Source: Marinobacter salicampi (GTDB lineage: Bacteria > Pseudomonadota > Gammaproteobacteria > Pseudomonadales > Oleiphilaceae). From it: a stretch of 64,000 bases of DNA. Within the stretch, counting starts at the first letter, position 1, and each line of letters opens with the position of its first letter. The stretch spans positions 62,001 to 126,000 of the forward strand of contig NZ_JAAMPF010000018.1 of the NCBI RefSeq assembly GCF_011074795.1. Reading direction: 5' to 3'. Under the pieces are notes generated by a model. That model searched no databases. It saw nothing but the letters and a program-made list of their open reading frames with translations, and was not told the DNA's origin. Shown in pieces: positions 7,881 through 18,463 of this stretch. A program made the translations under genes and the position numbers.

Positions 7881-8585
7881 TCAGAACCGGTAGGTGAAAC
7901 CGAGCATATATACCAGCGGATCAATATCCACATCCACTTTGCCGGTGGCCTTCAGGTTGCCGGCACTGTCATAGCCCTTGATGGTCGCTTCGGTGTCGAT
8001 GTCAGCCCACCAGATGGCAGCGTTGAAGCCAAAGCGCTCATCGAGGGCAATGTCCACCCCAAGCTCTGCAGCCAGGCCGATGCTGTCGTCCAGTTCGATG
8101 GTGGAACGGTCGGCGCCGAGTGCACCGGTCAGGGTTGGTGTCGTTTCTTCCTCGAAGAAGTTGGTGTAGTTCACCCCGATCCCCAGATAGGGCTGCACGG
8201 TACTGCCGCTGGCCAGGGGGAAATACTGCAGGGTCAGAGTCGGCGGCAGGTGCTTGGTCTCGGCCAGTTTGCCGGCGCCATTCAGTGCTGCGCCATCACC
8301 GCTGATGTTGTGCTTGAAGGGGGTCGCGGCAAGCAGACCGACCCCGAAGTGATCGCTGACAAGGTAGCTGGCCGTCAGGCCCAGCTGGCGATTGGAGTCC
8401 ACGTTCACTTCCCAGCCGTCCAGTTCGGTAGCGCCTACCCGGACATTGCCGCTGGAATCCTGGGGGTCAACTACGGCCACGCCGGCGCGCAGGATCAGGT
8501 CGCCGGCATCGTAGGCGTGGACCAGGGGCGAAGCCAGCATAGCGGTGGCAACCAGAGGAAGCAGACGAATACCAGGTGAAGTCAT
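7881..8585 (-). CDS. ompW: OmpW-family outer membrane beta-barrel protein
   Basis: A 234-residue precursor with a signal peptide (about 1-24, cut after VHA). A mature eight-stranded barrel of the OmpW family follows. Characteristic features are the N-terminal AGDLILRAG strand, the PTLTLQYF and QPYLGIGVNYTNF strands, and a C-terminal aromatic residue (YMLGFTYRF) required for BAM-mediated insertion. OmpW proteins form small hydrophobic channels in the outer membrane. The ribosome site AAGGAAAC is good. An imperfect FNR-type half-site (TTGAT, 8646-8650) lies about 65 bp upstream. OmpW is FNR-regulated in enterics, but the second half-site here is poor. Confidence 0.92.
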   Translation of the reverse strand: MTSPGIRLLPLVATAMLASPLVHAYDAGDLILRAGVAVVDPQDSSGNVRVGATELDGWEVNVDSNRQLGLTASYLVSDHFGVGLLAATPFKHNISGDGAALNGAGKLAETKHLPPTLTLQYFPLASGSTVQPYLGIGVNYTNFFEEETTPTLTGALGADRSTIELDDSIGLAAELGVDIALDERFGFNAAIWWADIDTEATIKGYDSAGNLKATGKVDVDIDPLVYMLGFTYRF

Positions 8586-8741
8586 GTTGGTTTCCTTAAC
8601 CAGAGAATGGATGTGCTCAGGTTAAGGTTTCGTGAGGGTCAGGACTTGATATAGCGCAAGACTGTGGTTGGACTCGGGCTGAGATGCGACGGGAACTTGA
8701 CCTGGCTCAACTGAACCGGAAATAGCTGCAACACCAGTGGC

Positions 8742-9224
8742 TTAGCCAACACTCCCGGCATTTTGCGAGCCGGTCTCTGGAACATCTTCCTCAGGCACGT
8801 ACACATCCCGCACCGTGAGCTCCCGACCGTCCATGCTCTGGACCGCCATGGCACGGATGGGTTGGCCGTTTTCTCGGTCTCTCAAGTTCAGGGGCGCGCC
8901 GTCCGGTGACGGATTCCATTTGTCGCCCCACTGACGCAAGGCAATAACTACCGGAAACAGGTCCCGGCCTTTATCGGTGAGCCGGTATTCCTGCCTTGAG
9001 CCGTGCTCGCCCACTTCGACTTTCTGCAATACTTCATTGTCCACAAGACGAGCGAGCCGGTCGCAGAGAATGTTGCGGGCAATGCCCAGCTCCTGCTGGA
9101 AATCCACAAACCGGCGAACGCCATACATTGCCTGTAGGACAATCAGCAGCGACCACCAGTCCCCAACTTCATTGAGGGCGCGTGCGACGGAGCAGTTTGA
9201 GTCATCAAAACGTTTTCTGGCCAT
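8742..9224 (-). CDS. HxlR-family winged-helix transcriptional regulator
   Basis: A 160-residue regulator. The HxlR winged-helix domain occupies about residues 8-100 (CSVARALNEVGDWWSLLIV, then a recognition helix around ARNILCDRLARLV and a wing SRQEYRLTDKG). Cys11 sits at the position where several HxlR proteins (YodB, HypR, QorR) carry a redox-sensing cysteine. The C-terminal 50 residues are an acidic extension. It is divergent from the Old Yellow Enzyme gene, and paired repeats in the gap are its likely operators. A quinone- or electrophile-responsive repressor of that enzyme is the obvious model, by inference. Confidence 0.88.
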   Translation of the reverse strand: MARKRFDDSNCSVARALNEVGDWWSLLIVLQAMYGVRRFVDFQQELGIARNILCDRLARLVDNEVLQKVEVGEHGSRQEYRLTDKGRDLFPVVIALRQWGDKWNPSPDGAPLNLRDRENGQPIRAMAVQSMDGRELTVRDVYVPEEDVPETGSQNAGSVG

Positions 9225-9240
9225 GGTTTCGAGTGTACCG

Positions 9241-9290
9241 AATAGGGTTGCATTTTAAAACCAGATTCAATAGGGTTGCATTACGAAACC
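9241..9290. promoter_or_regulatory. two direct-repeat operators between HxlR and OYE genes
   Basis: AATAGGGTTGCATT occurs at 9241-9254 and again at 9269-9282, exactly 28 bp apart. Each copy ends in AAACC, so each is an imperfect palindrome GGTT-N9-AACC (9246-9262 and 9274-9290). The site is just upstream of the HxlR start and about 100 bp upstream of the OYE gene. This is the layout expected of an autoregulating HxlR repressor. Confidence 0.6.
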
Positions 9291-9382
9291 AAATTAATGA
9301 GTAAACTACTCACCAAAATCGGCCGTCCCCAGACCTGAATTCTGGTTCGTGAGAAAGACGCCGATGTACTGGAGGCTTTGCC

Positions 9383-10495
9383 ATGTCCCTGAATCTTGGT
9401 CCCTTGTTCGAACCCTTTGAAGACAAATCGCTCAAGCTGCGTAACCGGGTCGCGATGGCACCCATGACCCGCAACTTCTCTCCCGGCAACGTGCCAGGTG
9501 AAAACGTCGTGGACTATTACCGGCGCCGGGCGGAAGGTGGCGTTGGCCTGTTGATTACCGAAGGCACCACCGTTAATCATGCCGCCGCCAATGGTTATCC
9601 CGATGTCCCGGCTTTTCATGGGCTTGAGGCTCTGGCTGGCTGGAAGAAGGTGGTGGACGCTGTCCATGAGGCGGGCGGTGCTATTTTCCCTCAGCTGTGG
9701 CATGTGGGCGCGGTACGTAAGGCGGGCACGGAACCGGACGCCAGTGTGCCCGGTTACAGCCCGTCCGGCTTCTATGCACCGGGCAAGGCCAATGGCAAGG
9801 CCATGAGTAAGGAAGACATCCAGGATGTGGTCAATGCCTTCGCTGATGCCGCCCAGGACGCCAAGGCCTTGGGTTTTGACGGCGTCGAGATTCATGGCGC
9901 CCACGGTTACCTGATCGACCAGTTCTTCTGGCAAGCCACCAATCAGCGCGACGACGAGTACGGCGGCTCCATGGCCAACCGCCAGCGCTTCGCTATTGAG
10001 ATCATTGAAGCCATCCGTTATCGGGTCGGCCCGGAGTACCCGATCATGTTGCGCTTCTCCCAATGGAAGATGCAGGACTATGATGCGCGTCTGGCGACTA
10101 CTCCGGAAGAGCTCGAGCAGTTCCTGCTGCCGCTGGTGGAAGCAGGTGTGGATATCTTCCATGCGTCTACCCGACGGTTCTGGGAGCCCGAGTTCGAGGG
10201 CTCGAACCTGAACCTGGCGGGCTGGACCCAGAAGCTGTCCGGCAAACCCACCATGTCTGTGGGCAGCGTGGGCCTGACCGAGGACTTCATCAGCGGCACC
10301 TTCGCAAGCAAGCAGGAAGCCGTCCAGCAGTCCGGCATTGACGAGCTGGTGGAACGCATGAATAACCGGGAATTTGATCTGGTGGCTGTCGGTCGTGCCC
10401 TGCTGCAGGATCCGGAGTGGCTGGTAAAACTCAAGGACGGCCGGGCCGATGCCATCGAGCCATTCGCCAAAAAGTCCCTGACCAAGCTCTATTGA
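9383..10495 (+). CDS. NADH:flavin oxidoreductase, Old Yellow Enzyme family
   Basis: A 370-residue FMN-dependent ene-reductase with a TIM barrel. Visible family motifs are RNRVAMAPMTR near the N-terminus, LLITEGTTVN, QLWHVG, the substrate-binding pair in GVEIHGAHGYLIDQFF, and NQRDDEYGG. The C-terminal FMN phosphate-binding stretch is VGRALLQDPEW. It reduces activated C=C bonds such as enones and quinone-like electrophiles using NAD(P)H. ATG 9383 has GGAGG at the right distance. The divergent HxlR regulator suggests induction by electrophiles. An intrinsic terminator follows about 110 bp downstream. Confidence 0.93.
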   Translation: MSLNLGPLFEPFEDKSLKLRNRVAMAPMTRNFSPGNVPGENVVDYYRRRAEGGVGLLITEGTTVNHAAANGYPDVPAFHGLEALAGWKKVVDAVHEAGGAIFPQLWHVGAVRKAGTEPDASVPGYSPSGFYAPGKANGKAMSKEDIQDVVNAFADAAQDAKALGFDGVEIHGAHGYLIDQFFWQATNQRDDEYGGSMANRQRFAIEIIEAIRYRVGPEYPIMLRFSQWKMQDYDARLATTPEELEQFLLPLVEAGVDIFHASTRRFWEPEFEGSNLNLAGWTQKLSGKPTMSVGSVGLTEDFISGTFASKQEAVQQSGIDELVERMNNREFDLVAVGRALLQDPEWLVKLKDGRADAIEPFAKKSLTKLY

Positions 10496-15656: not shown

Positions 15657-16844
<1,188 letters not shown>

Positions 16845-16934
16845 GGAGCACCTCTTTCTGTTGGCTGAGGTAAATGGTTGTGACTGTTGGAGCTGCGTGA
16901 GTTTCTTTAAACCTTGCCTGAAACTTGGGCTGTT

Positions 16935-17047
16935 GCGCCGGGCGGGTATCCCCTTTCAAAACACGCTCCTTCGGCCCATCCATGGGGCGCTTGGGCTCCG
17001 CCATCCCTGGCTCCGCACAGTTTTGAAAGGGGATACCCGCCCAACGC
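16935..17047 (-). repeat. structured palindromic repeat element, copy 1
   Basis: A 23-bp perfect inverted repeat (16940-16962 with 17020-17042) encloses 57 bp. Arms extend to 16935 and 17047 with two mismatches. Inside, 16987-17019 is a 33-nt core identical (reverse complement) to 17173-17205 in copy 2. Next to the core is a 5-bp hairpin CCCAT-CC-ATGGG (16975-16986). The element lies between the thiolase and acyl-CoA dehydrogenase genes of one minus-strand set. A 13-bp direct repeat CTTGCCTGAAACT flanks it at 16913-16925 and 17060-17072. Confidence 0.85.
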
Positions 17048-17143
17048 TTCGAGTTAATACTTGCCTGAAACTGCTCTTGGCTCAGGGTGTTAAGCTCACA
17101 GTGACCAGGCCCAAAGCGTGTCTACTTTTGCTGCCAAGCTCAA

Positions 17144-17255
17144 GGAGGCTGGCGGGCAGTGGTGTCCGAAACTGTGCGGAGCCAGGGATGGCGGAGCCCA
17201 AGCGCACACGGACGTGTTTACAGCGTGTTTCGGACACCACTGCCCGCGAGCCGCC
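17144..17255 (+). repeat. structured palindromic repeat element, copy 2 (opposite orientation)
   Basis: A 21-bp perfect inverted repeat (17152-17172 with 17227-17247) extends to 17144 and 17255 with two mismatches and encloses 54 bp. The 33-nt core 17173-17205 matches copy 1 exactly. The adjacent hairpin is ACACG-GA-CGTGT (17206-17217), unlike copy 1 in sequence but identical in shape and place. Both copies end in AGCGT just before the right arm. It begins about 30 bp past the thiolase stop codon. Confidence 0.85.
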
Positions 17256-17281
17256 ATGCACCGGACGATTTAGGCCATCTA

Positions 17282-18463
17282 TCAGGCGACTTCGAACAAC
17301 CCGGCAGCACCCATGCCCGTACCAACACACATGGTAACCACAACGTATTTAACGCCACGACGTTTGCCTTCGATCAGGGCATGGCCAACCAGACGTGAAC
17401 CGGTGGTTCCGTAGGGGTGACCAACCGCAATGGCGCCACCGTTGACGTTCAAGCGCTCCATGGGAATACCCAGTTTGCGCTGGCAGTAGAGCACCTGAAC
17501 CGCAAAGGCCTCGTTGAGCTCCCATAGGCCGATGTCATCAACCGTCAGGCCAGCGCGCTTGAGTAGCTTGGGCACGGCGAATACAGGACCGATACCCATT
17601 TCGTCCGGCTCACAGCCCGCAACTGCGAAGCCCCGGAAAATGCCCAGGGGCGCGACACCGCGCTGTTCGGCAATCTTGCTGTCCATCAGTACACAGGCAG
17701 AAGCACCGTCGGAGAACTGGCTGGCGTTGCCGGCGGTTACCACACCGCCTGCCTTTGCTGAGCGGATCTTGCTGACGCCTTCAAGGTTGGTGTCCGGGCG
17801 TATGCCCTCGTCCTGACTCACAGTCACTTCCTGAGTGCTGAGCTGGCCGGTGGCCTTGTCGGCAACACCCATAGTGGTGGTGATGGGTACGATTTCATCG
17901 TCGAACTTGCCATCTTTCCGGGCTTTGGCGGACAGCTGCTGGCTGCGTACGCCGTACTCGTCCATGTCTTCTTTCTTGATGTCGTAGCGCTTGGCGACGG
18001 TCTCCGCAGTATCCAACATCGACCAGTAAAGCTCGGGCTTGTTCTTGGCCAGCCAGGGTTCCATGAAGTAGTTCTGGTTAACGCTGGCCTGCACGGTGGA
18101 GATGGACTCCACGCCGCCAGCAACCATGACAGGTACCCGGTCCACGGCAATGTGGTGCGCCGCCATGGCGATGGCCTGCAGGCCGGACGAACAGAAGCGG
18201 TTGATGGTTGCACCGGCGACCGACACCGGCAGGCCGGCACGGATGGCGCCCATGCGGGCCACATCGTTACCGGTGGAGCCTTCAGGCAGGGCACAGCCCA
18301 TCAGCACGTCTTCAATTTCGTTGGGGTCGACCTTTGAACGTTCCACGGCATGCTGAATCGCATGGCCGGCCAGGGTGGCGCCATGGGTCATGTTAAGACC
18401 GCCGCGCCAGGATTTACCCAGTGGCGTACGGGCAGTGGATACAATAACGACATCATTGGACAT
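17282..18463 (-). CDS. acetyl-CoA acyltransferase (thiolase)
   Basis: A 393-residue thiolase with the nucleophilic Cys91 in [10 protein letters not shown]. The [16 protein letters not shown] segment has the catalytic His, and the C-terminal [10 protein letters not shown] has the second active Cys. It performs the last step of beta-oxidation, cleaving 3-ketoacyl-CoA with CoA. It follows the FadB-like gene by 58 bp with ribosome site CAGGAG, so the two form a typical fadBA-type pair. It is 437 bp from the next gene downstream because of the two palindromic elements. Confidence 0.95.

Follow-up and report, generated by a model that had tools for sequence, protein, structure and literature searches.

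A dispersed gammaproteobacterial repeat predicted to form a two-site RNA clamp for CsrA (RsmA), of the TwoAYGGAY kind

REP sequences are intergenic palindromes that lie close to stop codons and occur as inverted doublets. CsrA sites carry GGA in the loop of a hairpin, with the SELEX consensus RUACARGGAUGU, and a CsrA dimer can bridge two sites that are 10 to 63 nt apart, with an optimum of 18 (excerpts of PMC3856055). According to the same excerpts, the CsrB RNA holds 22 such sites and CsrC 14, each set within one RNA. For TwoAYGGAY (Rfam RF01731), binding by CsrA was predicted earlier and independently (PMC4333381, in excerpt); TwoAYGGAY has so far been an orphan motif whose link to CsrA is only predicted.

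The window analyzed here (the whole stretch of 64,000 nucleotides from Marinobacter salicampi) contains, between genes for a thiolase (393 aa) and an acyl-CoA dehydrogenase (395 aa), two palindromic elements that we call A and B (Table 1). The palindromes noticed in the initial annotation are real: the inverted repeats span 16935-16962/17020-17047 in A (28 nt, 93%) and 17141-17172/17227-17258 in B (32 nt, 91%). The core that the two elements were said to share is indeed identical in both (100%), but it is longer than the 33 nt originally given, at 37 nt (16987-17023 versus 17169-17205). About 9 or 10 of 21 arm positions differ between A and B with pairing kept (by eye, in a gapless alignment from the inner end), as had been described. 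Two details of that description need correction: instead of all five hairpin pairs, four of five differ in the frame probably meant (CCCAT/ATGGG in A, ACACG/CGTGT in B), or one of three in the family consensus frame, and the supposedly fixed loop of hairpin 2 differs in the consensus frame at its second and sixth bases. In each element one strand bears a pair of hairpins whose A-N-G-G-A-Y loops lie about 21 nt from each other; this strand, hereafter called the GGA strand, is sense to both flanking genes in A and antisense to both in B. Hairpin 1 of A is bordered by a GGA/GGA internal loop.

Table 1. Elements A and B, their parts and the flanking genes (window coordinates; loop bases in square brackets)
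Feature	Position	Strand	Basis or remark
Intergenic gap, thiolase versus acyl-CoA dehydrogenase gene	16845-17281		contains elements A and B
Acyl-CoA dehydrogenase gene	15657..16844	-	flanking gene
Thiolase gene	17282..18463	-	flanking gene
Element A	16936..17046	-	model R1 positions 1-108, 107 bits
Element A, 5' arm	17020..17046	-	
Element A, 3' arm	16936..16962	-	
Element A, hairpin 1 GCC[AGGGAT]GGC	17000..17011	-	sequence; family consensus frame
Element A, hairpin 2 CCC[ATGGAT]GGG	16975..16986	-	sequence; family loops
Element B	17146..17253	+	model R1 positions 1-108, 117 bits
Element B, 5' arm	17146..17172	+	
Element B, 3' arm	17227..17253	+	
Element B, hairpin 1 GCC[AGGGAT]GGC	17181..17192	+	sequence
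Element B, hairpin 2 CAC[ACGGAC]GTG	17205..17216	+	sequence; energy model prefers shifted ACAC[GGAC]GTGT
Outward-facing doublet A(-)/B(+)	16936..17253	.	

Both strands of A and B fold far better than shuffled sequences (z -7.1 to -7.9), and the energy model favors the GGA strand by about 5 kcal/mol in both elements. The two-hairpin fold is absent from the energy-model optimum of A, while that of B contains hairpin 1 and a shifted hairpin 2 with GGA still in its loop; the two-hairpin frame comes from the family alignment, not from energy.

Element A scored 31.7 bits against the TwoAYGGAY model (16927-17055, minus strand; cut-off 43), and B gave no match up to E 10. A copy in the urease operon reached 32.8 bits, again below 43, and the window genome as a whole had one matching place and none above the cut-off. 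Three of 20 related loci matched at E 0.5, one of them above the cut-off (L133, 45.2 bits) and two below it (L131, 36.8; L149, 34.7). The hairpin 2 loops, ATGGAT in A and ACGGAC in B, fit the AYGGAY pattern on one outer stem; the hairpin 1 loop is AGGGAT, so that the overall pattern is ANGGAY. The initial annotation had recognized no described family, which is half right: A and B fall below the cut-off and are not formal members, but they have the TwoAYGGAY architecture and a relative passes, so their kind is known. Matches to Rfam microRNA families (mir-642 and others) were below cut-off, look like chance matches to long hairpins and were discarded. Among the literature titles and abstracts listed as matches, we recognized no CsrA-related or Marinobacter repeat family.

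The elements belong to a large family. The core pattern GGAGCCANGGATGGCGGAGC (at most two mismatches) turned up in 94 of the 100 genomes surveyed within the genus, the window's own included, with up to 63 copies per genome (G014) against zero to two for the reversed pattern; a DNA search with element B matched 96 of the same number, again including its own. The 4.35-Mb window genome has only three copies by core pattern and 10 matches at E 0.001 or better by covariance-model search. The core recurs there, for instance, twice among the urease genes of another contig, where gene names are our reading of the ORFs; the same region (L007:9264-9550) also holds a 99.5-bit match to the 5' ureB sRNA family (RF02514), on the strand opposite to a urease ORF (7993-9696). 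With R1, a covariance model derived from 53 aligned divergent copies, the element was detected in 51 of 274 gammaproteobacterial genomes and 46 of 222 genera; at most 14 candidates were scored per genome, so that copy numbers are lower bounds and negatives are soft. Every match listed spans the full model length. Exact matches listed for a hairpin 2 pattern include Rheinheimera, Microbulbifer, Stenotrophomonas and Halopseudomonas, as well as bins named Cellvibrio and Alcanivorax. We read 113 unique copies from the genus, of which 111 entered the arm count (two with poor arms were left out) and 109, with at least 17 of 24 pairs, the counts of context, loops and strand. A further 122 copies came from other genera (some 30 genomes, a number of which contributed ten or more), with arms from 121 of them. 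Gene contexts rest on our own ORF heuristics, and copies at one locus across species are not independent, so p values below are indicative.

The arms measure about 26 bp; their sequences vary widely while 97 to 98% of positions pair, and sequence conservation is limited to about 35 bases beyond either inner arm end. The 22-bp arms of the 111 genus copies contain 2313 Watson-Crick pairs, 74 G-U, 10 A-C and 45 others. When 53 copies were aligned, 97.7% of cells paired, compared with 68.8% after shuffling and 37 to 45% after sliding, and changes on both sides were seen at 26 of 27 arm pairs. Covariation in these copies was 0.754, compared with 0.181 in shuffles; an alignment of 111 distinct copies from other genera, fitted to the model, gave 1.079 compared with 0.197. 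Arm changes are thus compensated well beyond the window. Neither of the two findings named in the initial annotation as speaking against it, a lack of further copies or arm changes left uncompensated, was obtained.

Wherever one strand forms a G-U pair, its complement has an A-C mismatch, and an excess of one over the other therefore reveals which folded strand is under selection. In the 26-bp arms of the 109 genus copies, which were selected by core sequence and not by arms, the GGA strand has 101 G-U against 12 A-C. Among copies from other genera it has 96 against 27, and in 102 of 122 each of the two hairpins carries an ANGGAN loop closed by 3 bp or more; both results are inflated to some degree, since the model that picked these copies favors such loops and prefers G-U to A-C. 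The excess identifies the GGA strand as the folded, selected strand, and this bias and the compensated arms together lend strong support to the proposed selection on a single folded strand. Relative to co-directional neighbors, the GGA strand is sense in 58 cases and antisense in 61, a random orientation. Its G-U to A-C ratio is 62:9 where it is sense to both neighbors and 48:16 where it is antisense to both (p 0.08 for the difference); the bias is present in antisense copies, and is perhaps weaker there than in sense copies.

The loops resemble CsrA sites. Hairpin 1 reads GCC[ANGGAT]GGC in 108 of 109 genus copies, a constancy that is partly by construction since the search pattern includes it, and stands atop a GGA/GGA internal loop in 101 of the 109, the rest having GAA/GAA or GTA variants. 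For hairpin 2, which lies outside the search pattern, 101 of 109 copies show an ANGGAY loop, N being any of the four bases, on stems of CAC/GTG (52), TAC/GTA (45) or CCC/GGG (4). In the other genera there are 10 stem types for hairpin 1 and nine for hairpin 2, and 20 of the 122 copies lack one ANGGAN loop; the exact SELEX consensus is present in 21 of the 122 and ACANGGAYGT in 82. The distance from GGA to GGA is 20 to 22 nt in the 99 copies, of 109, in which it could be measured. The family therefore has what the sequence of a CsrA/RsmA site calls for: GGA in hairpin loops, surroundings near RUACARGGAUGU and a spacing within 10 to 63 nt. CsrA itself was found in 47 of 51 bearer genomes and in 188 of 223 non-bearers, which is not a significant difference (p 0.18); the bearers outside the CsrA match list are G107, G168 and G199 (67 to 88% complete) and G295 (98%). 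A longer variant with an insert in the core occurs at L054:848-1039 and L058:947-1138 (about 192 nt in both), at L123, and at three orthologues of a convergent-gene locus (L361, L367 and L383). In these last three the insert lies within hairpin 1 and brings a further ANGGAY hairpin and a GACGCAGGAGCA stretch (by eye); the insert matched no Rfam family.

Two loci show how the elements behave over time. At the thiolase locus, we took the 30 best-matching loci and analyzed 29, the last ending at a contig edge (L120). Both elements are present in 20 of the 29 orthologous gaps, in constant order and orientation, whereas five gaps have one element or remnants and four are only 93 to 97 nt long, with a plain hairpin and no elements (both by eye). 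In comparisons between species pairs, which are not counts of events, differing arm pairs of A were changed on both sides and still paired in 1756 cases, against 149 that were one-sided or broken; for B, in which one copy (L123) carries an insertion, the tally was 1804 against 330. For the convergent-gene locus we compared 30 orthologues, those that matched best among the 60 genomes where a match existed: in 10 of them the element points one way, in five it points the other way, and 15 lack it. In a tree built from the flanking genes, the minus state requires five changes, all forced by well-supported branches. In two genomes (L362 and L363) the place is taken by repeated GGGGTCAGA(T/A)GAAAG hairpins, which form a different repeat family.

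The core has inverted between intact arms during evolution. Loci L377 and L380 agree at 24 of 26 bases in one arm and share the outer flank, but have inverted cores, and among six copies with common arms and flanks in genome G166, the core alone is inverted between the arms in L207, as far as the fragmented assembly of that genome can be trusted. The nested inverted-repeat modules around the element in G166 (L142 and L203 to L207) are swapped left to right in three of the six copies. Core inversion would explain the random orientation to genes; the constant orientation at the thiolase locus argues against frequent flipping. Of 12 loci with doublets within about 350 bases, with likely orthologues taken once and two more outward pairs (L032 and L035) left out, 11 have members that point away from each other, minus first and plus second (p about 2e-6 against random orientation); the exception is L142, where both members lie on the same strand. 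Neither exact ends nor a target duplication could be defined, from the remnants and unalignable gaps of the thiolase locus or from the absences and deletion scars of the convergent one (by eye).

We propose that the element is a two-site RNA clamp for CsrA (RsmA), of the TwoAYGGAY kind, carried on a dispersed repeat; going by sequence, we would put the chances of this being right at about even. The long outer helix, almost free in sequence, would present two short ANGGAY-loop hairpins, the shape known for CsrA/RsmA sites. If the GGA strand is transcribed, one CsrA dimer could clamp both loops, which would tether CsrA to the 3' end or an intercistronic part of the mRNA and add to a genome-wide pool of CsrA decoy sites, while the long arms may insulate the clamp and protect the RNA. 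Copies would have spread as MITE-like repeats and then been kept, with arms re-evolving under selection for pairing; recombination or template switching between the inverted arms may flip the core, giving both orientations. A bolder extension is that core flipping makes genome-wide invertible RNA switches, in which core orientation would decide whether a transcript has a CsrA-binding face or an inert complement, putting each locus heritably in or out of CsrA control; we consider this quite unlikely.

The main objection to the clamp comes from the antisense copies. Half of the co-directional copies are antisense and yet strand-biased, so an ordinary cis-acting mRNA element cannot explain every copy, and mobile single-stranded DNA would explain them equally well. 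The element might then be selfish foldback or MITE-like DNA, read as one folded single strand by a trans-acting mobility enzyme, with the ANGGAY loops as its recognition signal and CsrA irrelevant. This is a real possibility, if on the doubtful side. Random orientation, an intergenic position near stop codons and patchy presence (the 51 of 274 genomes) all fit it, and G-T is a mild mismatch in DNA as well. So do bursts of copies: several copies at different sites have common arms in G166 and G200, and less clearly in G285, so that the element spread there, in G166 within a larger inverted-repeat unit. The earlier idea of MITE-like dispersal holds for G166 and G200, the only genomes with near-identical dispersed copies bearing terminal inverted repeats, and weakly for G285, but not for the window's genus, where, in four genomes from which 10 to 23 copies each were fetched, paralogues are no more alike in their arms than shuffled sequences and the copies are therefore old. 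That old copies at one locus nevertheless stay paired speaks against selfish DNA, as do loops that fit a known RNA-protein recognition rule and a search for Y1 transposases that found no mobility enzyme. The same search bears on REP-like palindromes dispersed by a Y1 (HUH) transposase, or RAYT, as the initial annotation had suggested. Doublets in fixed inverted order recall REPINs, and the two urease-operon copies have a Y1_Tnp-like ORF in their vicinity (L007:433-1404, 323 aa; 22.6 bits, cut-off 23). However, Y1_Tnp occurs in 56 of 100 genomes, with no match in copy-rich G024 (59 copies), G090 (51) and G022 (38). Since the divergent ORF of the window genome falls just short of the Pfam cut-off, the survey was repeated with that protein, whose matches, gene pieces included, fall in 22 of the 100 genomes, again with none in the same three, and mostly in the copy-poor or copy-free relatives G030, G057, G086 and G087 (six matches in G030, with no elements, and seven in G057, with one). 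The distribution of Y1 transposases thus does not match that of the element, and we regard this origin as very improbable. Two further mobile systems were dropped. Inverted elements about 700 to 800 bp apart at L058, L084, L090, L097 and L098 recall a composite transposon, but the DUF1415-like gene between them in the three loci inspected (assigned by Pfam for L084) is an ordinary host gene. Integron attC sites conserve their ends, not their loops.

A strong hairpin could also act without CsrA and in either orientation, blocking 3' exonucleases or marking mRNA ends. The median distance to the near stop codon is 23 to 52 nt, many copies lie in convergent gaps (31 of 109 and 21 of 122, by our own ORF calls), both strands fold, and the four element-free thiolase gaps have their plain hairpin. 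A strand-neutral role, however, leaves the one-strand G-U/A-C bias and the loop pattern unexplained; by eye, several orthologous gaps lack any hairpin, and no intrinsic terminator (a hairpin followed by a T-tract) was found in 16600-17600. We judge this reading unlikely. That A and B are a local inverted duplication without function would account for their 37 identical bases, but is refuted by recurrence and compensation across genomes, and we give it practically no credence.

If the CsrA clamp is correct, the RNA landscape that CsrA meets in many gammaproteobacteria is shaped by a repeat element. Since the family reaches dozens of copies per genome and occurs in culturable genera, the CsrA prediction becomes directly testable. 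Pairing kept while identity is lost, together with a flipped core, also makes the family a natural system for studying compensatory evolution and inverted-repeat recombination.

Among known systems, the strand opposite the GGA strand of related elements weakly matches Ysr224 (RF02770; at most 38 bits, cut-off 70), a family that differs in being modelled on the complementary strand. REP, BIME and REPIN elements share the intergenic position, the palindromes, the nearness to stop codons and the inverted doublets, but here there is no matching RAYT distribution and the arms are almost free in sequence. CsrB, CsrC and the Rsm sponges also expose GGA in hairpin loops, and one element would act like a one-dimer sponge; in contrast to CsrB and CsrC, it offers two sites in each dispersed copy and has no promoter-like site beside A or B (none was found in 16600-17600, and so none between them). 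The closest relative is TwoAYGGAY (clan CL00106), which likewise has an outer stem with two adjacent AYGGAY-type hairpins, a GCGU-like stretch before the 3' arm and a GA-rich internal loop, and whose model aligns end to end, with gaps, to A and to a second copy. The present family differs from TwoAYGGAY, as portrayed in the excerpts of PMC4333381, PMC2864571 and PMC11701678, in four features that are absent there: a high number of copies, 26-bp arms whose sequence is almost free, bursts of MITE-like copies and core inversion. What is new, then, is a high-copy, in places MITE-like dispersed element of this architecture, whose core is inverted between intact arms.
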